DNA from: a virus
Length of the DNA: 45,524 nucleotides
Strand: one strand, 5' to 3'
IMG/VR virus record: IMGVR_UViG_3300027743_000043
Location: 1-45,524 of that record
This document shows, piece after piece, positions 13,585-42,053 of this stretch; the first letter of the stretch is position 1; every line of letters begins with the position of its first letter. The notes beneath the pieces are model-generated. The model saw nothing but the letters and a program-made list of their open reading frames with translations, was not told where the DNA came from and did not search any database. Both the position numbers and the translations under genes were made by a program.

Positions 13585-16205
13585 CAGGTTGCCTCATCTT
13601 CGCTGTCGTCTTCGTCCTCAGTGATCCGCTCGAACTCTTTGATGCGGCCCTTCTCGTCGTGCTTCGTGACCGTCGTGATCTCCCGCCCGCCCCTGTTGAC
13701 GATGGTCACGGGGACGGTGACGTGGATCGTCTGCTCGTCCTTCGGGGCGCGCTTGCTGAGGGCGGTCGCCGCGTCCTTCTGGGTCTTGAAGTTCCCGATC
13801 TTCCCGTTCTTGTCGTCGGCCCTCCACCTCACCGCCTCGCCCCGTCCCGACGCGACCGCACCCCCTGCGCCGCCGGACCTCTGCTCGTTCGTGACGACCT
13901 GCTTGACGGTGCCCACCTTGGTGTTGCCCTTGTAGGCGTTGTAGGACTTGAGCTTGACCGGCGCCTCCTTGCCCAGGACCTTGGTCTCGCGGTTGTGGTC
14001 GGAGGCCTCGTACATGTCCAGGCCTGCGACCTGGCCGGCGAACTTGCCCTTCTCGGTGGTCTCTCCGACCTTGGGCGCAGCCGCTGCCGCCCCTCCGCCC
14101 CCGCCCGATCCGAACTGCCCGTTCTCTGCTCGCTCCTGGTTCTCGTTGTACTCGTCCAGGGCCACCTCGGGGACGTCGGTCTCGTTGTTGAAGCCCGTCA
14201 TCTGGATCTCCTGGAAGACCTCGGGCCCGAGGACGATCTCGCCCCGGTAGGGCTCCATCTCGTCGATCTGCTCAGGCCCGTTGTAGGTGATCGTGACGTG
14301 CGGGTTGTAGTCCTCGTAGTCGTACGAGCAGCCCTGGTGCTTCAAGGAGGAGTGGCGCCAGGACAGGTCGGAGTTGCCGAAGGCGAGGACGACAGCCTTG
14401 CCGAACCTCTCGACGATGCGGGGTCCGCCGGGGACGACGCGGATGTGCCCCTCCAGGTCCTGGCCCCAGGCCTCGCCCATCTTGATCCAGTCGACCGCCT
14501 CCTTCGAGTACATGATCGTGACGTGCATCTCGGCCGGGGTGACCGTGGACTTGAAGCCCTGCGAGGCCGCCCAGTCGATGATGGCCTGCGCGTTCAGCAC
14601 CCTGCGGTAGACGTAGAGGGGCTTCGGGGTCGCGTCGGCGAGGGCGTCCCGGACGGCGGCGTTGCCCGACGGGGTCCGCATCCTGTCCCTGCCCTTGATC
14701 CTGCGGCGCCGCTGGGCAGCCCGGAAGTCGTTGGCCGCCCTCTTGGCCGGGTCCAGGTTGCTGTTGGCGGGCTCGGGCAGATCCGCGTCTGGGTCCTCGG
14801 GGTCCACCTCGGCGTTCGGGTCAGCGTTCGGATCGACCACGGGCTCAGGTTCTGCGCGCAGACCCTCCTCGTGGTCTGGGTCGTCGAACTCCTCGATGAT
14901 CTGCTCGATGCCTGGGTAGGTTCCGTCCTCGATGAGCTGCGCCTCCCTGGCCTTCTTGAGCACCACCGGGTCCAGGATCGCGGCATCCACGTCCACCTTG
15001 AACGTGTCGGCCTTCTTCTTCTCCAGGTCAGCCTTCTGCTCCGGCGTCATCTGCCAGAGGGAGTTCCACACGTAGAAGATCTCCTCGGGCTTGGAGCCGA
15101 GGGCGGACCGGATCAAGACTTCGTCCAGGCGCCAGAGCACCGGGGAGTCGTCGTTCTTCTGCTTCGAGGAGACCGAGTCGTAGTAGTTCCTGGTGTCGCT
15201 CTCGCCCGTCGCGCTCATGCCCGCGGGGGACTGGCCGAAGAAGCGGGTCGCCGGGATGTCGGCTGCGCCGCAGACCATCAGGAAGTACATCTGCAGGATC
15301 TCGGGCAGGGACGCGAACGAGGCCACCTGCCTCTGCCACTCCTCCTCCTTGTCGATCAGGAGCATGGAGTGCACGCCCTTGATGATGTTGGCGAGGCCGA
15401 ACCGCTCGAGCAGGTTCCGCTCGTAGGTCCTGGATGAGATGTTCAGCGTCAGCCCTGGGATCTTGATGATGTCGATCTTCGACTCCGCCACGAGCTGAGC
15501 CACCGACGCAGTCACCAGGCCGCAGGACTTGATGGCGTCGGCGACGTTCAGCAGGACGGAGTCGCCCCAGGGCTGCTTGGTCGTCAGGACGTCCTGTCTC
15601 GGCATCCCGACGAAGGGGACGACGCGGCTCGGGTGGAAGCGGACCAGGGTGCCGTTGAACAGGGAGTGGCGCTCGTAGTAGGAGGGCTCACCGTACCAGG
15701 GCGAGGTGATGTCGTCGATCATGGGGCCAGGCGACACGTCCCAGCGGCTCACCGGGTGCAGGAACTCCAGGTCTCCGACCCTGACCGCCTCGATGTCCAC
15801 CGGGGTCTCGTTGGATGCGCCCTTGATGCCCATGACGATGCCGGCGCCCCCGTAGAGCCGAGCCTTCTGCTTGGCCACCTTCATCTTCTGCTGCAGGCCA
15901 AGGCGCTGCTCCTCCGCCTCGATCGCCGTGATCTCCTCCGGGTCGCCGGCCTGCCAGGACCGCCACTCCCTGGTGGCGTCCTCCGCCGGAATGTCGATGA
16001 GCTTCCGGGCGATCCAGTCGCCGCGGTAGGCCGCGTCGGCCTGCGCCTGGTCCATGTCCGGCATGACCCAGTTGACGCCGGTCATCTTGTCCTTGGCCGT
16101 GCCGAGGCCCGTCGCCAGGTTCTCCAGGCTGTCCCGCGCAGACTTCTGGCTCGGTGGGGGCTTGGATGCCCGACGGGTTGGTGCGGAAGCTGCTCTCTTA
16201 GCCAT
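13584..16205 (-). CDS. Portal protein (DUF1073) fused to Acb1-like anti-CBASS domain
   Basis: An 873-aa protein. Residues ~25-400 match DUF1073 portals: [31 protein letters not shown], and [20 protein letters not shown] (~322-341). An acidic linker (~440-485) leads to a 2H phosphoesterase-like domain (~528-665) with paired motifs HVTI at 561 and HVTI at 636, preceded by [19 protein letters not shown]. That layout is Acb1, which cleaves cyclic nucleotides of CBASS immunity. An [15 protein letters not shown] joint (~691) and a Lys/Glu-rich C-terminal tail (~710-873) follow. Pfam already links this portal family to Acb1. The portal forms the DNA entry ring in the head. Confidence 0.85.
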
Positions 16206-17751
16206 CTGTGTTACCCCTGACCCAACTGAGCGATGTGTCGTAGTTGTAGGTCTTCTCGATCATCTTGTTGAAGGCGCCGGCCGAAGCGTCCACCTGGTCC
16301 TTGAACTGGCCCGACGGGAAGGCTTCGTGCTCGTTGATGAAGTCCCGGTTCCACTTCTTTCGCAGGAGCTTGACGTTGCCTGCCTGCACCGCAGCCGCGT
16401 AGGGCTCGGCCCGGACCTCCTTCTTGCCGGTCACCCGGTCGATGAAGCAGAGGTGCCCGTGCAGGTTGGCGACCGTGCGCTGCGCGCTCTCCTTGCCGCC
16501 GGACCCCGGCTCCTGCTCCACGTAGACGACGGTCCGCTGGATGCTGTCGTCCAGCTCGGCCGTCGCCTTGATCTTGGTCTCTCGGGTGTAGGCGTCCCAC
16601 TGGCCCCGGACGACGTCCTCGACGATCACGGTGCCGTCGGCCATCTGGTTCATGAGCACGCCCGCCGTGTGGGCGCCGCCTCCGGACGTGCCGGCCTTGT
16701 CCCAGTACCTGACCCGCTTCTTGATCTCGGACTGGGGGAACGAGCCGATGATGCGCATCTCCTCGATGGGGAACATGCCGCCGCCCTGGATGATCGGGTT
16801 CTGCTGATACAGGCTCTCCCACGAGACTTCGGTGTAGGTCTTCCGCTGCTCCAGGAGGAACTCCAGGGACTTGAACTCTGGGAACAGGGCCTCGCCGACG
16901 GACCGGGGCTCGCAGTTCACCCGGATCGACTCCTCGGTGGCGAAGGCCGGGTAGCGGAGGATGGTCATGTCGGGGAAGCGCTCGATCAGTCGGCCGGCGG
17001 GGTCGTCCACGTGCCACCTGGTGACGGTCATGAGCATGCCCGCCCGGTCGTCGAACCGGGACATGAAGTCGTCCGTCATCCAGGACCAGGTCTTGTCTCG
17101 GATGGTCGGCGACTGCGCCTCGCCCCGGCCCTTGATCGGATCGTCGACCACGCCGAAGTCCAGCGACTTCCCGGTGATCTGCCCGTCGGGGGCGGTCGTG
17201 TTCTCGAAGTAGCCCTTGCGCCCGACGAAGTGCATCAGGTGGCTGTTCCGCTGGTACTGGCCCGCGTACTCGCCGCCGCCCTTCAGGGGCAGGATGCGCG
17301 TGTCCGGGAACGCCCTCTTGAAGCGATCGTCCTCGAACCGCCTCTGCAGCTCCGTGTTGGTCTTCGTGCCCAGGTCGCCCGAGTACGATGCGAAGATCGT
17401 CCGGAAGTCGGGCTCGTGCCCGTGGAACCAGGACACCCCGTCCTGCACGCTCCTGGACTTTCCATGTTGCGGCGGAGCCATCAGGAGCAGCTTCGGCCGG
17501 TGGCCGTTCTTCAGGCGGATGAAGAACCTCTGCAGGAGGCCGCTGACCTGGCGCGGCCACCAGCCGACCCGCATCTCGGGGTCCATCATCTTGCGGTAGG
17601 CGTACAGGTTCTCCCTGGCCTCCGCCGCTTGCAGGTCCATGATCAGGTCCAGGTCCTGCTGGGTGAACCTGGGGCGGTTGCGGCTGTCGTGCTCTGCGCG
17701 GGCGATGGCCTCCCTGATCTGCTCCTTGCGGGGGTTGTGCGCGTCCATCAT
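16198..17751 (-). CDS. terL: Terminase large subunit
   Basis: A 517-aa protein. The start is ATG 17751 overlapping the upstream stop (TGATG); upstream residues in frame are a shadow. The ATPase part carries LLLMAPPQHGKSRS (Walker A, ~88-101) and SLDFGVVDDPIKGRG (Walker B, D203-D204). The nuclease part carries VRYWDKAGTSGGG, VVYVEQEPGSGGKES and KDQVDASAGAFNKM, the three acidic clusters of an RNase H-like fold. It packages concatemeric DNA into proheads through the portal encoded next, whose start overlaps by 8 bases. Confidence 0.92.
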   Translation of the reverse strand: MMDAHNPRKEQIREAIARAEHDSRNRPRFTQQDLDLIMDLQAAEARENLYAYRKMMDPEMRVGWWPRQVSGLLQRFFIRLKNGHRPKLLLMAPPQHGKSRSVQDGVSWFHGHEPDFRTIFASYSGDLGTKTNTELQRRFEDDRFKRAFPDTRILPLKGGGEYAGQYQRNSHLMHFVGRKGYFENTTAPDGQITGKSLDFGVVDDPIKGRGEAQSPTIRDKTWSWMTDDFMSRFDDRAGMLMTVTRWHVDDPAGRLIERFPDMTILRYPAFATEESIRVNCEPRSVGEALFPEFKSLEFLLEQRKTYTEVSWESLYQQNPIIQGGGMFPIEEMRIIGSFPQSEIKKRVRYWDKAGTSGGGAHTAGVLMNQMADGTVIVEDVVRGQWDAYTRETKIKATAELDDSIQRTVVYVEQEPGSGGKESAQRTVANLHGHLCFIDRVTGKKEVRAEPYAAAVQAGNVKLLRKKWNRDFINEHEAFPSGQFKDQVDASAGAFNKMIEKTYNYDTSLSWVRGNTDG

Positions 17752-18839
17752 CAGAATGCAAAGCTCACGTTGGTGGCTTCGACCTTGTCGACGTCGAGCG
17801 GGTCGTCCGGGTCCGTCTTGAACGTGATCGAGACCGTGATCGTGCCTGGCCCCCTCTTGGTCTCCCCCGTGTTGAAGGTCTTGTAGACCCCGGCCATCTC
17901 GTCCTCCGGGAAGCGCCCGACGTCGTCGTGGTCGACGTTCGGCGGGAAGAAGGCCGGGGCGCCTGCGTAGAAGTCGACGTCGGCGTTGAAGATGTCGTCG
18001 GTCGCGACGTCCTCGGGCTGAACCACCGGCCACGCCTCGTACCCCATGACCTTCAGGTACCGGGCGAACCAGAGCTTGCCCTCGTAGCTGGCCTTGCCGC
18101 CGATCGCCCCCGGACGGGACCAGGTCACGTCGAAGGTCACCACCTTCTGGCCGACGGCGACAGCGGCAGACTTGAGGGCGTCGTAGGCGATCCAGATCAG
18201 GCGCGTGCCCGGACCGACGGTCTGGGTCTTGGACGCTCCGACCTCGTCGTGGCCGGCAGTCTCGGTCAGCAGGAAGATGTCCCAGTTGAAGCCGGCCAGG
18301 CCGATGTCCGTCGCGATCGACATGGCGAGGACGTTCGAGTAGAGCGAGCTGGCATCGTCGGGCGCAGTGTAGTCTGAGCCGCCCGCTCCATTCCACGAGA
18401 CTGTGAACGGCACCTCCTGCTCGCCGAACGGATCGAAGCCGGAGGAGCAGATCGCCCCGGTCAGCGTGTCGATGAGGACGTACTCACCGGCGTCGATCAC
18501 GTGGAAGGTCAGCCCGGAGAAGACCTTCGACCTGGGGTCGGCCACCGCAGGGAACGCGTGGAACTTGTTGGGGGCTGCGGTGAAGGCGGGCACGGGGTCG
18601 GCTTCGCTGCCCGGAGGGGCAGACACCTTCTCTGGGAACGGGCCGTAGGCCAGGACGCCGTCCTGCCAGCCGAACCAGGGGAAGTCCGACTGCAGAGTGA
18701 TGCGGACGCTGGGGTCCGTGCCCCCCGACGGGATGCTCGAGTCGACCTGCCCCATGCCCTGGACGAACAGCAGGAGATACCGGCCTCCGGGCCAGTTCAC
18801 GTTCACCAGGTGCTGGGTGGGGTCGTGGGCTAGCGGCAT
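17751..18839 (-). CDS. Unknown protein between gcrA-like and terL genes
   Basis: A 362-aa protein from ATG 18839 (TGATG overlap), beginning MPLAHDPTQHLVNVNWPGGR. Beta-rich with many Asp/Gly/Pro; segments such as HVIDAGEYVLIDTLTGAICS and GTITVSITFKTDPDD suggest two or more beta-sandwich domains. No signal peptide or membrane span. It sits where a small terminase is common but does not look like one (too large, no DNA-binding motif). Probably a virion or tail protein; not recognised. Confidence 0.6.
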   Translation of the reverse strand: MPLAHDPTQHLVNVNWPGGRYLLLFVQGMGQVDSSIPSGGTDPSVRITLQSDFPWFGWQDGVLAYGPFPEKVSAPPGSEADPVPAFTAAPNKFHAFPAVADPRSKVFSGLTFHVIDAGEYVLIDTLTGAICSSGFDPFGEQEVPFTVSWNGAGGSDYTAPDDASSLYSNVLAMSIATDIGLAGFNWDIFLLTETAGHDEVGASKTQTVGPGTRLIWIAYDALKSAAVAVGQKVVTFDVTWSRPGAIGGKASYEGKLWFARYLKVMGYEAWPVVQPEDVATDDIFNADVDFYAGAPAFFPPNVDHDDVGRFPEDEMAGVYKTFNTGETKRGPGTITVSITFKTDPDDPLDVDKVEATNVSFAF

Positions 18840-19516
18840 CAGCGTGCAGTCCGGCCGAAGGTTCGCTTTGGGAGGTAGCTGTCGGCCCCTGGGGGCTTGC
18901 GGAGGGGCTGGACGCTGGCCCGGTGGTGATACGGGCAGTAGGCCAGCGGACGCGCTCGGCTGGCCCCTGAGGCCCGTGGCGCGTCGCACACCAGCCCGTC
19001 GGGCATCGGCCACTGGCAGCGATCGCCCTCGGGGACGGTGGCATCCCCTGCCGAGGTCGCCATCGGACCCTCGAGGCTGGCGGCTCCCTTGGTTTCCTTG
19101 GACTTCGGAGGCCTCACCTGGTCGATCTGCATGGTCCTGGACACAAACACGGTGGTGTTCCCCATCCCCATGTTGACCCTGCCAGCCCGAGGCTCAGGTC
19201 CGGTCTGAGTGTCCTGGGACTTGTAGTTCGCCTTGGCTCTGACCCTGCTGATCTGACGCATCTTCACGTCCATCCGCACGCCAGTTGCCCTGCCGGCGGT
19301 CCTCGGATACTTCTTCTGCAGGTCGAGGCGGTGGATCTTGCCCCCGACGGCAGAGATCGTGAAGGTGACACAGGAGCGGGGGAACTCCGCCCGCATCGCC
19401 TTGACGATCTTGGCGATCGTCAGGTAGGCCCCGCGCGTGCCCGAGTACAGGAGCTCGAGGTGCGCGATCTCCTGAGAGGTCCACCTGCTGTTCGGGGAGT
19501 CGGTCTTTGTCATCAT
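18839..19516 (-). CDS. gcrA: GcrA-like transcription regulator
   Basis: A 225-aa protein. N-terminal HTH-like region RWTSQEIAHLELLYSG...TISAVGGKIHRLDLQ (~11-68) parallels the GcrA DNA-binding domain (WTDE...NAVIGKVHRLGL). The C-terminal end DRCQWPMPDGLVCDAP...YCPYHHRA (~166-200) matches the RNA-polymerase-binding CxWP...C...YCxxH end of GcrA. Host GcrA activates sigma-70 promoters carrying methylated GANTC. A Lys/Arg-rich middle of ~90 residues is longer than usual. The start is ATG 19516 (or 19513); no clear ribosome site is visible, because the first 62-bp repeat ends at these codons. A TTG further upstream would read into the repeat. Confidence 0.65.
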   Translation of the reverse strand: MMTKTDSPNSRWTSQEIAHLELLYSGTRGAYLTIAKIVKAMRAEFPRSCVTFTISAVGGKIHRLDLQKKYPRTAGRATGVRMDVKMRQISRVRAKANYKSQDTQTGPEPRAGRVNMGMGNTTVFVSRTMQIDQVRPPKSKETKGAASLEGPMATSAGDATVPEGDRCQWPMPDGLVCDAPRASGASRARPLAYCPYHHRASVQPLRKPPGADSYLPKRTFGRTAR

Positions 19517-19812
19517 CAACAGAAGTCTCGTTTTGTTGCGTACAAGTTTAACGACCAATCCTCATGGTCTTTCTACGTTGACAGCATTCTCGTTTTCCTG
19601 ACAGCAATTGCATCCTTCTGTTCTCATGACCTTTCTACGTTGACAGGAACTTCGTTTTGGAACCAGCAATTGCATCCTTCTTTTCTCATGACCTTTTGGG
19701 GTTAACAGAAATCTCGTTTTCCGCGTTGCAATTGCATGCTTCAGTTCTCATGGTCTTTTGGGGTTGACAGAAATCTCGTTTTGACCCGTAGAAGTTTAAC
19801 TGATCCTGTGAG
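19517..19812 (-). repeat. 62-bp tandem repeat, block A (5 copies)
   Basis: On the plus strand the anchor TGACAG/CAACAG occurs at 19517, 19579, 19641, 19703 and 19765, exactly 62 bases apart. Each unit reads TGACAGAAATCTCGTTTT (with changes), 8 variable bases, then CAAGTTTAAC or CAATTGCAT, 8-10 variable bases, CTCAT, about 10 variable bases and CGT or GGT. Copies 2-4 carry CAATTGCAT. Copy 5 decays into the TGTG-rich region after about 45 bases. On the coding (minus) strand, every full unit holds an ATG. The block abuts the gcrA-like start. Confidence 0.95.
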
Positions 19813-20100
19813 CCACATACGCCGGGTGTGTGCCTCATCGGCCGGCCAGTGTGCCGGATGTGTGGCCAGAGGTTCAGGTGTGAGCCGCATACGCTAGCAG
19901 TGTGCCTCATCGGTCGGTTCCCCGACAGGTGTGTGGCCAGAGGTTCAGGTGTGAGCCCTCATTGCCAGGTGTGAGACTCACAGGCGCGGACGGGATCTTG
20001 TGCGACGGGTGCAGATCCGATGTGTGGCTCACTGGCCGGGTTGTGAGGCTCACTGCTCCGCTGTGGTCCGGATGTGGGGCGTGTGTGCCAGGTGTGTTGG
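19807..20100. repeat. TGTG-rich patch with a 72/71-bp direct repeat
   Basis: Two direct repeats, 19807-19878 and 19879-19949, each begin TGTGAGCC and end TGTGTGGCCAGAGGTTCAGG; a third copy begins at 19950 and diverges after about 10 bases. Within and after them TGTG-containing boxes (TGTGAGCC, TGTGTGCCTCAT, TGTGTGGC) recur roughly every 10-24 bases. Open frames across it are Ser/His/Thr/Pro-rich and have no ribosome sites, so I regard it as non-coding: a likely protein-binding or replication site. Confidence 0.8.
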
Positions 20101-20101
20101 T

Positions 20102-20321
20102 CAACAGAAGTCTCGTTTTAGTCCGTACAAGTTTAACTTCCATTCCTCATCTTCTGCCAACGTTAACAGGAACTTCGTTTTGATCCAAGCAATTGCATCG
20201 ATCAGTTCTCATCTTCTGCCAACGTTAACAGAAATCTCGTTTTAGCCGACGCAAGTTTACCGATCTTTCCTCATGGTCTTTCTACGTTAACAGAAATCTC
20301 GTTTTATTCAGTGCAAGTTTA
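20102..20321 (-). repeat. 62-bp tandem repeat, block B (4 copies)
   Basis: Anchors at 20102, 20164, 20226 and 20288, again exactly 62 bases apart. The last copy runs into the TAA stop (20319-20321) of the secreted Cys-rich gene: that stop codon is the TAA of the repeat's GTTTAA element read on the minus strand. Copy 2 of this block carries the CAATTGCAT variant. Confidence 0.95.
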
Positions 20322-20666
20322 ACTGCACTCCTCCCGGAAGCGCCGGCAGTTGCCCTGGCCTCGGTCCCCGCGTTCGTCCTTGAACATGCAGGCGCGGCGC
20401 AGCCGCTCGCAGCGGCCACCTCTACCACCGCCACCAATGATGTCGCCGATGCCCCCAATGACGCCGCCGCCGCCGCCGCCTCCCCTTCCACCGCGCTCAT
20501 CTCCGCACTGCTCTCGGAAGCGCCGGCAGTTGCCGTCGCCCCGCTCGCCCAGCGAGTCACGCATCAGGCAGGCTTGGCGCAGAGATCGGCAGTCTTGTGC
20601 CTCGACGAGGGTCGGGATCAGCCCGACGGTTGCGAGGGAAGCGGCGATCAGGAGTGCCTTGAGCAT
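20319..20666 (-). CDS. Secreted Cys-rich two-module protein
   Basis: A 115-aa protein. A signal peptide is clear (MLKALLIAASLATVGLIPTL then VEA|Q, cut near residue 23). The mature part has two copies of one Cys module with identical spacing, C26-C33-C47-C54 and C86-C93-C107-C114. Each contains DxxGxRGxGNCRRFREEC-like sequence, joined by a Gly-rich linker (~59-84). Even Cys counts and export suggest disulphide-bonded periplasmic or surface modules. AAGGGG precedes ATG 20666. The gene lies between two blocks of the 62-bp repeat and its stop is part of the repeat. No family recognised. Confidence 0.75.
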   Translation of the reverse strand: MLKALLIAASLATVGLIPTLVEAQDCRSLRQACLMRDSLGERGDGNCRRFREQCGDERGGRGGGGGGGVIGGIGDIIGGGGRGGRCERLRRACMFKDERGDRGQGNCRRFREECS

Positions 20667-20685
20667 TTGGTTGTTTCCCCTTGGT

Positions 20686-20967
20686 TGACAGAAATCTCGT
20701 TTTGGAACCAGCAAGTTTACCGATCCGCTCTCATCTTCTGGTGACGTTGACAGAAATCTCGTTTTATTCCCAGCAAGTTTACCGACCGATCCTCATCTCT
20801 CTTCAACGTTGACAGAAATCTCGTTTTGATCAGTGCAAGTTTACCGATCAATCCTCATGGTCCGTTGGGGTTGACAGAAATCTCGTTTTGATCGGTAGAA
20901 GTTTAGCTTTCAGCTCTCATCTTCTGCCAACGTTGACAGAAATCTCGTTTTCCTGACAGCAAGTTTA
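20686..20967 (-). repeat. 62-bp tandem repeat, block C (5 copies)
   Basis: Anchors at 20686, 20748, 20810, 20872 and 20934, exactly 62 bases apart, all with TTGACAGAAATCTCGTTTT intact. The right-most copy ends in the TAA stop (20965-20967) of the small-terminase-like gene; the left-most copy merges into the leader of the secreted protein gene. It fills almost all of the 298 bases between those two genes. Confidence 0.95.
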
Positions 20968-21441
20968 ATCATCCTCGCCTGTCGTCTGGAAGGCTTCGTC
21001 CTCGATCTCAGTAAACTCTGCGTCCACGACCGACGGGTCGTCGGGCAGGGATGGGTCGTGCTCGATCAGGGTCGGCGGGCGGTAGCCCCGGTCCAGGAGC
21101 TGCTGCCTGAGCTGGGCGGCGGTCATCTTCGGGCCGCCGTCTGCGCCGACCGCCGCAGCCGTGATCGTCGCATCGACCTGCTTGGGGATGATCTTGCCGA
21201 CGAGCGGACCGAAGATGTCGGGCTTCTTGCGGGACAGCCACACCAGGTAACCGATCGCTCCGTCCTTGCCCTTCCCGTCTGACCCGCTCTTGTGCATGGC
21301 GTCGATCACGAGCTCTTGGACGATGCGCCCGTTCTTGTTGGGAATGCCCTTGCGGGTCTTCGTGGCCTTGTCGCCCTTGTGGAGCGGCTTGAGGCCCCGG
21401 TATTGGGGCAGGTCCAGCTTCGGAGATCTTGATCCGGCCAT
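20965..21441 (-). CDS. DUF5681-like protein, possible small terminase
   Basis: A 158-aa protein. RKGIPNKNGRIVQELVIDAM and IGYLVWLSRKKPDIFGPLVG then KIIPKQVDA match the pattern of DUF5681-type phage proteins (KGTPNK...; FxxLxGKxLPxQV), often placed near terminases and proposed as small terminase subunits. The N-terminus is basic, the C-terminus acidic (VVDAEFTEIEDEAFQTT). ATG at 21441 lacks an obvious ribosome site. TerL lies 3 kb downstream, which is a longer gap than usual. Confidence 0.6.
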   Translation of the reverse strand: MAGSRSPKLDLPQYRGLKPLHKGDKATKTRKGIPNKNGRIVQELVIDAMHKSGSDGKGKDGAIGYLVWLSRKKPDIFGPLVGKIIPKQVDATITAAAVGADGGPKMTAAQLRQQLLDRGYRPPTLIEHDPSLPDDPSVVDAEFTEIEDEAFQTTGEDD

Positions 21442-21850: not shown

Positions 21851-24628
21851 TCAGCCCAACGGGGGCACCCGTCCGCGATGCTGCCGGGGTACTTCCGCGT
21901 TCAGATCCTGGTCCGTTCGGCTCAGGGTGGTGTGTCCGCCCTGCCGGTTCGCAAGGAACCCAGCCCTCGCATTCCAGTGCGCCAGCCCCGCCTCGTTCAG
22001 CTTCAGACCGCCCACGTGCCGCTGCGGCTGCCCGAACTTGTCGAACTTGAACATTGCGCTATCCGGGTGGAACTTCAGGGCCTTCGCGAATGCGCCAGGC
22101 GACGGGATCGGCAGGCCGTGGTTCTCCTCTCGCCAACTGTGAAACGCCGCGTAAAGATCCGCGCTGACGTTCATCGCGGTCCGGTCGTACTCGCAGCAAT
22201 CCCTGACGAAGCCGATCGAGATGTTGCTGTCCTCCCGGAGCTCAGCCGAGGCCTCGTCCATGTCAGGAGTGTACGAGTAGTGGCCCCTCGCCAGGGCCCG
22301 CTTCATCCCGGCAATAGCCCAGTTCAGGACGCCTGACTTCTCCTCCTCAAGCACCCAGTCCGCCGGAGACGAGTAGCCCCTCGCAACCGCCTCAGCGGCC
22401 ACGCCCGTCGGGCGCAGGGGGTCGAACACCGTCCGGATGCGCAGGATGGCCAGGCGGTTCTCCATTGCCCTGCTCATCTCCCTGAACTGCGGCATCACGT
22501 TCGCGCCCCAGAACGACGGCCCGCGGTAGACGTGCGCGGTCTGGGCACCGTTCTTGATGTTCACCCCGACGGGGTCCGACGACAGCAGCGCCTTCACCAT
22601 CGAGCTGATCTCCCACTTGGACTGATCGAAGGCTTCGTGCAGGACCCAGGGCACGCTGCGGAGGAACGGCTCCGTGCCGTGCGGCTTTGAGAGCTGGTCG
22701 ATGGGCTGCGTGATCGGGGCGTTCGTTATCAGGCCGCTGAGGACGTTCAGGAGGGTCGACTTGCCGGAGTTGCTCTCGCCGACCAGGACCAGAGCCCGCA
22801 TCAGCGCCTTCTGCTTCCGGGCCAGGAGCGCCATGCCTAGGTTCTCCTGGATGAATGCGACCGCGCCGTCGTCCTTCACGATGTCCTTGAGCGTCCGCAT
22901 CCAGATCGGGCAGGCGGCCGCCGGGTCGTACTCGCACTCGATGCGGGCTGTGGCGTAGTCGTCCGGCCTATGCGGCCGGTGGTGCATGGTTTCCAGGTCG
23001 ACCAGGCCTGACTGCGTTGAGATCATCCCGTGCGCGTCCCACTGCACGTCAGCTTCGTCCTGGTGGATCTCCCCCATCCGCTGCAGGTGGGCGATCGTCT
23101 CATTGATCACGGTCGTCGTGGGCACGATGCCCAGGGCGTCGCACCCGACGTTGATCTCTCGAGCTAACCAGGACTTTTCCTCCTTCGTCACCCCGTACAT
23201 CGCCCACAGCCCATCCCGGTAGCGCCAGGGCACAGAGCCGATGTACATGAGCTGCTCGCCCCGCTGCTCCAGAGCTGCCAGGACGCCGGCGGCCAGGACC
23301 ACGTGGGCGTCCTTCTTGCCCTTTTTCTTCCTCCCCTCCTTGGGCTCAGGCCGGGGCTCGCTCTTCCGCTGCGCACGGACCTGGTCGAGGTGCACCACCT
23401 GGGCAGCCCTCCCCGTCGGGCGGGGTGCTGGCTTCGGCATGGAGGCGAGCTGCTGCATGCCCCGGTTGGCCTGCAGGGAGGCCAGCTCCGGCGGCTCCCC
23501 GCCCATCGCTTCGTCTAGGATCTCGCCGCTGTCGTCCTCAGGATCGTGTGAGCCCTCATCGGCCGTGAGTGCCCTCTCTTCCTCCACTTGGTCCTCTGGC
23601 GGCTCCGCCGGGAACTCGTGGCCCACCTTCTTGATCCACCCCCGCATCGCGCCTCGGACCTTCCGGCGCTCGACGTCCATGTTCCAGCTGTCCTCGGCGA
23701 CGCGCTCTAGGGCCTCCATCATCTTGGCCTCGACGAAGTCCTCGGTGTAGCCCTGGGACAGCATGCCCGACGTGACGTCGCGGATGGTCAGGTGGACGGA
23801 GAAGGTCTCGTCTATGCCCTCGTCCCGGCGCTGCTCCAGGTACTCCATCCGGGCCAGGCGGTCCCGCCAGTCGATGTGGTCGGTGTAGCCCTGCAGCTCA
23901 GCCACCCGGAGGAACGGGTTCTCCTGCTCCGCCACCTTCCGCTCCCGGACCTTTCGCGTCAGCACTGGAGGGGCCTCCTGGGCGGCCAGGGAGCCCAGCC
24001 AGGCGCTCAGCACCGCTCGGGGGTACCTTTCCCCCTCGCCAGCCAGCACGCGCACCAGCGCCCACGCCCCGGCTTTGGTGTTGTGGGTTCCCGGAACCCG
24101 GAGCAGGGTGACAGCGTGCCGGGTCGCCTTGTCCCCCGCCAGGTGGTTTCCAAGGACTTGGAGTTCCGCCTCGTAGGCTCTGACGTCCTCGGGTCCGGGC
24201 GCATCCGTCGGGTCGGTGAAGAACCAGTAGGCGTGGACGCCCCCTCCGGACCTGTGCATTCGGCTGGGCGGGTTCGGCAGGGCGGCCAGGGCTGCCAGGA
24301 CCTCGTCCTCGGTGTTCAGGATGTCCTTGAAGTCGATGTCGACGTGCAGGCACGTCAGGGCGGCCACGTTGGGCTTGACCCGCTTGTGCCCCTTCAGGAT
24401 CGGGCTGACGCAGTGGAAGCAGCCCCGCTCGGCCCTGTCGTGCTTGACCAGGAACCGGCGGATGCGCTCTGGGTCCCTCGTCAGGACGTGGACTTCGCCC
24501 TTGCCTGACTGGCCCCGGACGTTGGGCAGGCTGCACACGTAGACGGGGTGGTCGTGCCCCTGCAGCATGTAGTCGACATAGAGCGTCAGGTCGGCGCCGG
24601 GGCCGACTTCTTCGTTAATCTCAGTCAC
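21851..24628 (-). CDS. PrimPol (AEP primase) fused to SF3/D5-type helicase
   Basis: A 925-aa protein. The primase part has LTCLHVDIDFKD (catalytic D97-x-D99), MHRSGGGVHAYWFF (H132) and VTLLRVPGTHNTKAG, the three AEP/PrimPol motifs. A long acidic/basic linker (~340-440) follows. The helicase part has LVLVGESNSGKSTLLNVLSG (Walker A, 615-634), VPWVLHEAFDQSKW (Walker B) and GPSFWGANVMPQF (sensor Asn). The protein would unwind DNA and lay primers at the origin. Start is GTG 24628 behind GGGGTGAG. It works with the family A polymerase and probably the nuclease upstream. Confidence 0.88.
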   Translation of the reverse strand: MTEINEEVGPGADLTLYVDYMLQGHDHPVYVCSLPNVRGQSGKGEVHVLTRDPERIRRFLVKHDRAERGCFHCVSPILKGHKRVKPNVAALTCLHVDIDFKDILNTEDEVLAALAALPNPPSRMHRSGGGVHAYWFFTDPTDAPGPEDVRAYEAELQVLGNHLAGDKATRHAVTLLRVPGTHNTKAGAWALVRVLAGEGERYPRAVLSAWLGSLAAQEAPPVLTRKVRERKVAEQENPFLRVAELQGYTDHIDWRDRLARMEYLEQRRDEGIDETFSVHLTIRDVTSGMLSQGYTEDFVEAKMMEALERVAEDSWNMDVERRKVRGAMRGWIKKVGHEFPAEPPEDQVEEERALTADEGSHDPEDDSGEILDEAMGGEPPELASLQANRGMQQLASMPKPAPRPTGRAAQVVHLDQVRAQRKSEPRPEPKEGRKKKGKKDAHVVLAAGVLAALEQRGEQLMYIGSVPWRYRDGLWAMYGVTKEEKSWLAREINVGCDALGIVPTTTVINETIAHLQRMGEIHQDEADVQWDAHGMISTQSGLVDLETMHHRPHRPDDYATARIECEYDPAAACPIWMRTLKDIVKDDGAVAFIQENLGMALLARKQKALMRALVLVGESNSGKSTLLNVLSGLITNAPITQPIDQLSKPHGTEPFLRSVPWVLHEAFDQSKWEISSMVKALLSSDPVGVNIKNGAQTAHVYRGPSFWGANVMPQFREMSRAMENRLAILRIRTVFDPLRPTGVAAEAVARGYSSPADWVLEEEKSGVLNWAIAGMKRALARGHYSYTPDMDEASAELREDSNISIGFVRDCCEYDRTAMNVSADLYAAFHSWREENHGLPIPSPGAFAKALKFHPDSAMFKFDKFGQPQRHVGGLKLNEAGLAHWNARAGFLANRQGGHTTLSRTDQDLNAEVPRQHRGRVPPLG

Positions 24629-34304: not shown

Positions 34305-34994
34305 TTACGCCAGGCGGACCAGCGGTCGATCGCCACGACGCTTACGGCGCAGAGACAGCAGGCCAAGGCCAAGGAAGCCCAAGCCCATCATCGCCCACGT
34401 CGCAGGCTCAGGTACGCCAGCGATCTGCTGGCCGGGGATGAGCCCGGCCTGTCCAGTTGCGTAGCCGGTATCAAACGCGCCGCCGTCCGGATTGAGCGGG
34501 TTGAACGCGAAGATGTGGTCCGACACTACCCGGTTGTTGGAGTTGAGAGCGAAGATGCTCGCAACGCTGTTCCACTGCCCCGTCGGATTGTCGAGCGTGA
34601 AGTGGAACTCCGTGACCGACCGCGTGAAGCCGTCGAACATGTTGATGGAGGTGTTGAAGTCCCCCCACGTTCCGCCGTTGCTCGAATTGATGCTCAGGAC
34701 GGATGTCGGCGGGTTGGTGCCGTTGATGAGCGGCGTCCAACCGATGCCGCTGATCAGATAGTTCGTTGCGGAGAAGTTCAGGTCGAACGCCCCTTGCCCT
34801 CCGAACGAGTAGCCGGTCGCCGCCTGATAGCTGAAGGACGCCGTGTCTCCGTCGATCAGGTTCACAGTCAGCGTGCCGTACGGCGGCAAGAACTGAGCCG
34901 GCAGATTGCTCTGCGTCAGGCTCAGGGTTGCACCAAAGGATGGTGCAATCATTGCTGCCCCCATGGCAGCAGCCAGCAGTAGTTTTTTCAACAT
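34305..34994 (-). CDS. PEP-CTERM (PEPxxWA type) surface protein
   Basis: A 229-aa protein. Signal peptide MLKKLLLAAAMGAAMIAPSF then G|A (~21). Mature part ~22-190 is beta-rich, Asn/Gly/Ser/Thr-rich (SVLSINSSNGGTWGDFNTSI). The C-terminus has VPEPATWAMM (195-203), a membrane segment GLGFLGLGLLSL and RRKRR (216-220): a complete exosortase sorting signal, followed by an unusual 9-residue tail. In bacteria, such proteins are cut by exosortase and placed at the surface or in biofilm matrix. GGAGAG precedes ATG 34994. I know of no established phage example. Confidence 0.85.
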   Translation of the reverse strand: MLKKLLLAAAMGAAMIAPSFGATLSLTQSNLPAQFLPPYGTLTVNLIDGDTASFSYQAATGYSFGGQGAFDLNFSATNYLISGIGWTPLINGTNPPTSVLSINSSNGGTWGDFNTSINMFDGFTRSVTEFHFTLDNPTGQWNSVASIFALNSNNRVVSDHIFAFNPLNPDGGAFDTGYATGQAGLIPGQQIAGVPEPATWAMMGLGFLGLGLLSLRRKRRGDRPLVRLA

Positions 34995-41467: not shown

Positions 41468-41501
41468 TCACAGGTACCTCCAAGCATTTTCCATGGCGCC
41501 C
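41468..41501. repeat. 34-bp direct repeat, copy 1
   Basis: Identical over 34 bases to 41763-41796. Encodes the end GAMENAWRYL and stop on the minus strand, here without the rest of that gene (only a 11-residue open frame from ATG 41501). Confidence 0.95.
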
Positions 41502-41505
41502 ATGA

Positions 41506-41766
41506 TCAGGTCGTCGAGTTGATTGCGGTGGATAGGGCGCTCATCGCGCAGTGGCAGGGGTGGTCGGCTCCGGTGCATCCGTCGCCGCAGTGGTTCTTGG
41601 ATCGCTGGGCGGCAAACAGCTTGGCAAAGTCCTCCTGCGCCTTGTTCGCGATCGCCAGCTCCCGGGCCTCGTCGGCCGTCAACCACTCGCGGTCTTCGGG
41701 GGTTGGGGAGCCGCCCAGCATGAACAGCCGGGTGGCCATCGAGTCGTCGTTCGGGTCTTGGGTCAC
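41506..41766 (-). CDS. Small Cys/His-rich unknown protein
   Basis: 86 aa from GTG 41766, overlapping the upstream stop (GTGA). VTQDPNDDSMATRLFMLGGS, a helical middle (DEARELAIANKAQEDFAKLF) and CGDGCTGADHPCHCAMSAL near the end, a possible metal-binding cluster. Flanked by the two copies of the 34-bp direct repeat, so it looks inserted by a duplication or recombination event. Confidence 0.6.
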   Translation of the reverse strand: MTQDPNDDSMATRLFMLGGSPTPEDREWLTADEARELAIANKAQEDFAKLFAAQRSKNHCGDGCTGADHPCHCAMSALSTAINSTT

Positions 41767-41796
41767 AGGTACCTCCAAGCATTTTCCATGGCGCCC
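41763..41796. repeat. 34-bp direct repeat, copy 2
   Basis: Lies at the end of the gene at 41763-42053 and includes its last ten codons and stop. Copy 1 is 295 bases to the left. Confidence 0.95.
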
Positions 41797-42053
41797 TTGA
41801 GGGCTTCCTTCTGCGACAGGCCATAGCCCGACCACATCCGGCCGTTCGGATACCACACGACGATCTGGTCCGGACCGTCCTTGTGGCCGCGGGCCATCAG
41901 CCACTGCTTGCCGTGGAGGGTGGCCACCCGGAAGCCGACGAACTCGTCGATGCCGGAGTAGTCCTTGGCGAATGCGGGCTTGTCGACCAGCGGGAGGTCT
42001 ACGCGGAACTCGGCGAAGCCGGTCGGGATCTGGATGGTGACGGTGCGGGCCAT
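41763..42053 (-). CDS. Small unknown protein
   Basis: 96 aa from ATG 42053. MARTVTIQIPTGFAEFRVDL, FVGFRVATLHGKQWLMARGH, IVVWYPNGRMWSGYGLSQKE and the C-terminal KGAMENAWRYL. Compact alpha/beta pattern with many aromatic residues. Not recognised. Its 3' end is duplicated downstream. Confidence 0.6.
   Translation of the reverse strand: MARTVTIQIPTGFAEFRVDLPLVDKPAFAKDYSGIDEFVGFRVATLHGKQWLMARGHKDGPDQIVVWYPNGRMWSGYGLSQKEALKGAMENAWRYL

Follow-up and report, generated by a model that had tools for sequence, protein, structure and literature searches.

The 45,524-nucleotide window analyzed here comes from a circular phage genome about 75.2 kb in size; except for its last few bases, the window is matched by a 75,335-bp IMG/VR record that has a terminal repeat of 123 bp. 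On the minus strand, a segment of ~3.2 kb separates the gene for a TerS-like small protein (20965..21441; phrog_11043, with homologues just upstream of terL in related phages) from the large terminase gene (16198..17760; phrog_38). This segment carries a repeat array and three genes without detected relatives, in the order block 3, secreted protein gene, block 2, gap, block 1, GcrA-like gene, and 362-aa gene, and the flanking genes are read in the direction of the array. The secreted protein (20319..20666, minus strand; 115 aa) is Cys-rich with an internal duplication and had no match in Pfam or PHROG. The GcrA-like regulator (18839..19516, minus strand; 225 aa) matched PF07750 with an E value of about 6e-5 and 24.0 bits, below the Pfam curated cut-off of 26.9; it displays a helix-turn-helix at the N-terminus and a C-W-P/C-A-P/Y-C-x-x-H motif at the C-terminus, its AlphaFold model from the single sequence reached a pLDDT of 37, and no match was found among phage proteins or in the PDB. 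The last gene of the insertion before terL (17751..18839, minus strand) encodes a 362-aa protein with no family assigned, for which protein searches found no second virus.

Our analysis of the array revealed a 36-bp core, reading TAAACTTGC-N7-AAAACGAGATTTCTGTCAAC on the minus strand, that occurs 14 times over 1.45 kb. The sequence-only reading had described fourteen copies at exact 62-bp steps in three blocks; all copies are present at that step, and the layout holds with five, four, and five cores, although the block edges had to be refined to 19518-19798, 20100-20321, and 20684-20967. Block 1 (19518..19798, minus strand) comprises five cores, with box-2 starts at 19518, 19580, 19642, 19704, and 19766, and four 26-bp spacers, and on the minus strand the GcrA-like gene begins directly at the 3' end of this block, its ATG following right after the last core. 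Block 2 (20100..20321, minus strand), with four cores (20103, 20165, 20227, and 20289) and three spacers, starts at the TAA stop of the secreted protein gene, and block 3 (20684..20967, minus strand), with five cores (20687, 20749, 20811, 20873, and 20935) and four spacers, starts at the TAA terminating the TerS-like gene and stops 17 bp short of the secreted protein gene. Between blocks 1 and 2 lies a non-coding gap of 301 bp (19799..20099), CA-rich on the minus strand, which is itself a degenerate repeat with a period of ~72 bp and contains 11 RTGAG/CTCAY words (shuffles: mean 2.5, maximum 7). Within blocks, the cores are separated by eleven 26-bp spacers, all eleven of which carry ATGAG on the minus strand. 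A CRISPR array was considered and rejected, as the spacers share ATGAG and modules while the cores vary. Allowing up to three mismatches, the box ACAGAAATCTCGTTTT matched 14 times in the window, always on one strand and inside the array, whereas 100 dinucleotide shuffles of the window gave 0.06 matches on average and never more than one; the box was absent from the rest of the phage genome. Another IMG/VR record of this virus carries an identical array, and no windows of the 75-kb genome are richer in AT than the array blocks.

Each 62-bp unit contains three boxes with constant spacing: GTTnACAGAAATCTCGTTTT, the left part of which continues in some units into the dyad TTCTGnCAAC.GTTGnCAGAA; GCAAGTTTA, replaced by GCAATTGCA in four units; and CTCAT. 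The dyad overlaps the main box and is near-perfect in three units and graded in the others. Similarity of the M1 linkers to the inverted arm of box 2 scored 40, against 19.2 for permuted columns (eight unique linkers, p = 0.001; p = 0.009 with the perfect dyad left out).

The phage contig was also binned in a Myxococcaceae metagenome-assembled genome (contig RPRB01000006.1), in which the sole GcrA match sits on the phage contig itself. Together with the avoidance of GANTC by the phage (observed/expected 0.54), the infection of Rhizobium and Aminobacter by its capsid relatives, and a GcrA above the cut-off encoded by one related phage, this makes an alphaproteobacterial host appear likelier than Myxococcaceae. 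Across the genome, GGATCC (0 of 40 expected) and ACCGGT (2 of 40; counts over both strands) are strongly depleted, and CCCGGG, CAGCTG, and GANTC are likewise avoided, which suggests restriction pressure. The TerL proteins of related phages are at most about 53% identical. When the repeat unit was sought in about 28 of these phages, the array was absent from all of them, terS lay directly upstream of terL wherever a clear terS match existed, in about ten phages, and none had this gcrA-like gene adjoining terL. Where the relatives had tandem or low-complexity regions, these were coding repeats of collagen-like type, apart from one phage with a stretch of 5-bp periodicity. In the relative IMGVR_UViG_3300042821_000052, C-rich and apparently non-coding DNA with a GCCNN-like period of 5 bp extends over ~1.6 kb at 57988-59626 (L055:17988-19626), ~1.8 kb after a GcrA gene. 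The array DNA had no blastn match in INPHARED phages or PLSDB. The exact box was found in 21 IMG/VR stretches, with more than one match solely in the same virus. Searches for three boxes at 62-bp steps returned chance arrays and the same contig only, both in IMG/VR and, among the matches listed, in GTDB genomes, and a variable-period box pattern recovered from IMG/VR the same virus and one chance match.

A neutral tandem duplication that persisted by chance was weighed against the pattern of variation among the units. The occurrence of the array in a single lineage and the shuffling of repeat modules, as in unequal exchange, would fit such an origin. However, the alignment of the 14 units showed 78-100% identity between copies in the boxes and 34-56% in the nearly saturated linkers (random expectation ~26-31%), and at least 59 substitutions but no indel were counted. 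Conserved boxes beside diverged linkers without any indel argue for selection on sequence and spacing rather than a fresh tandem duplication, so that a neutral origin is highly improbable and the array is more than that. The units are equally similar between blocks (0.71), within blocks (0.72), and as neighbors (0.72), which points to an old array, and identical short linker modules occurring with different boxes indicate that modules were exchanged among units. Judged from these alignments, the array is real, constrained, and lineage-specific, the constraint being read from the 14 copies of one lineage. An integron-like cassette array, in which genes enter at the spacers that separate recombination repeats, would account for the shuffled modules and for the gaps of 301 and 362 bp that break the array exactly between cores, and it drew on the correct observation that the stops of the TerS-like and secreted protein genes are the TAA of the first cores of blocks 3 and 2, respectively. 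Yet no ORF precedes the first core of block 1, and the fit in two of three blocks may reflect the TAA at the start of the conserved core. The phage genome encodes no PF00589 (Phage_integrase) or PF00239 (Resolvase) protein, the core lacks inverted arms and by inspection its ends do not fit the attC consensus RYYYAAC/GTTRRRY, one of the two large gaps is non-coding repeat DNA, and no relative was found with a different gene in the array slot; the idea of genes occupying an ORF slot thus lost its footing and is very unlikely. The short reading frames noticed earlier do exist: in seven units the frame opened by the ATG reaches TAA after five codons, and in four (19580, 19642, 19704, and 20165) the frame stays open for 21 codons to a TGA overlapping the next ATG. 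These frames and the ATGAG kept in every spacer could be taken as a chain of translated leader peptides (MRIDR-stop) or of 21-aa peptides coupled by ATGA. However, the ATGA overlap is explained by the conserved ATGAG together with a period that leaves a remainder of 2 on division by 3, so that its prior chance was one in three. The synonymous fraction in the ATG frame (0.281) was reached by 44 of 200 permutations of the columns (0.241 ± 0.049), which gives no sign of codon-level constraint, four units have an extra in-frame TAA at a second position, and the spacer ATGs lack a consistent Shine-Dalgarno sequence, leaving translation of these frames quite unlikely. Reassignment of TAA codons (CAA, GAA, and TAA alternate at one position) was rejected, as TAA ends the TerS-like and secreted protein genes. 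The small-RNA array proposed alongside the peptides fared no better: RNAalifold yielded about 0 kcal/mol in all registers tested on either strand, covariation among units did not exceed that of shuffles, and the array had no match in Rfam. Both the micro-ORF and the small-RNA readings are therefore disfavored.

A stronger competitor, although still doubtful, is an iteron-type replication origin or a centromere-like partition site, in which initiator- or ParB-like-binding repeats flank a gene. The head-to-tail repeats in a single orientation lie in the AT-richest part of the genome, close to the primase-helicase gene (21851-24628), and the dyad in the unit favors this reading; the array is also a candidate origin or partition site in a phage for which no other was identified. 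The incC/incA loci of P1 similarly place same-orientation repeat blocks on either side of a gene; they differ in that their iterons of 19 bp, about two helical turns, surround repA and are accompanied by this Rep gene, whereas the period here is 62 bp. The sopC/parS_F centromere of the F plasmid, with twelve 43-bp tandem repeats of which ten contain a 16-bp inverted repeat (PMC6238139), shares the long head-to-tail organization and a dyad in many units, but the present array has a period of 62 bp and forms three blocks broken by a gene and a gap. The 75-kb genome had no match to PF02195 (ParB_N) or PF13614 (AAA_31, ParA-type), searches that were positive in control genomes, and no Rep gene was noticed. 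The cumulative GC-skew minimum, confounded by gene orientation, lies near 30 kb and not 20 kb, and the lack of any such array in about 28 related phages also speaks against an origin or partition site. The TerS-like gene ends at block 3, and the position directly between terS and terL raises the alternative that the TerS-like protein binds the array as a pac site; TerS rings are known to bind repeated sites near terS. A pac site is very improbable, since homologous terS-terL pairs of the relatives have no array and 14 copies over 1.45 kb far exceed known pac sites.

Iteron-like, helically phased, predicted protein-binding sites, one of the options raised by the sequence-only reading, represent the best family of explanations, and the array is probably a cis-regulatory or replication/partition element. 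Phages often place clusters of binding sites where gene programs switch. In the alphaproteobacterial phage vB_BsubS-Delta, a non-coding gap region of ~1.3 kb near the terminase module contains sites for a cell-cycle regulator, namely TTAA-N7-TTAA for the host CtrA (PMC9437464). Our array resembles such regions in being a dense site cluster near the terminase module of a phage with a probable alphaproteobacterial host, but it has no TTAA-N7-TTAA and its sites stand in a 62-bp register. Nine TTAA occur in the array region, none of them 11 bp apart, and GANTC is absent from all 14 units, with one GANTC in the gap and one in the secreted protein gene, so the array does not qualify as a typical GcrA/CcrM target or as a CtrA cluster of that kind. 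The SAS/ESAS of Cluster K mycobacteriophages (PMC3203893) and the 17-bp repeats of Cluster O (PMC4351075) are likewise phage-specific and repeated, and they lie in short intergenic regions, often beside start codons, but they are dispersed singly, in contrast to the tandem and phased sites described here.

We give about an even chance to the more specific proposal that the array is a cis-acting DNA element whose 14 sites are bound cooperatively by one DNA-binding protein or perhaps two. The sequence, spacing, constraint, and position of the units, along with the missing coding and RNA-fold signals, were observed directly, and protein binding and its cooperativity are what they would imply. A period of 62 bp corresponds to about 5.9 helical turns, placing the sites roughly on one face of the helix, so that a protein occupying the 14 phased sites cooperatively could form loops along the array or spread over it. 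The region upstream of the secreted protein gene consists of block 3, and that of the gcrA-like gene consists of block 2, the gap, and block 1; this location makes transcriptional control of the inserted module the likeliest role, in a direction yet to be regarded as conjectural. As to which protein binds, the GcrA-like regulator might autoregulate through the array, which perhaps doubles as an iteron or centromere-like site. Besides the coding and RNA-fold results, the box conservation without indels, the even similarity of units across blocks, the starts of the gcrA-like and secreted protein genes right beside the blocks, the AT-rich blocks, the graded dyad, and the joint absence from the relatives of the array and of this gcrA-like gene next to terL were counted in favor of the binding-site array. 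Its restriction to a single lineage, the GcrA assignment below the cut-off, the lack of GANTC in the array, and the lack of a promoter match counted against it. Sigma-70 promoter and terminator scans of the array region returned no match, and the boxes were thus linked to no promoter; a T7-type RNA polymerase had no match in the phage genome, and control genomes were equally without a match. A bolder and unlikely version holds that the GcrA-like regulator nucleates an extended nucleoprotein filament in the interval from terS to terL, which would gate late genes by the cell-cycle state of the host. It builds on the phased three-box units and the two interchangeable box versions GCAAGTTTA and GCAATTGCA, and our search found no described phage with such a GcrA-nucleated array element. 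More generally, a 14-site array with fixed phasing, two box versions, and graded dyads, next to a phage-borne relative of a host cell-cycle regulator, would provide a small natural model in which to study cooperative DNA binding and the cell-cycle control of a phage.

Elsewhere in the window, a 38-bp direct repeat (41468-41505 and 41763-41800; 97% identical) sits at gene junctions and carries, on the minus strand, a Shine-Dalgarno-like GGAGGT. A phage protein encoded at 34305-34994 of the window (minus strand) displays a PEP-CTERM sorting motif at its C-terminus, above the Pfam cut-off. A phage-encoded amidoligase-family enzyme was noted at L045:7609-8619 (minus strand; phrog_2443, E value 1e-48).
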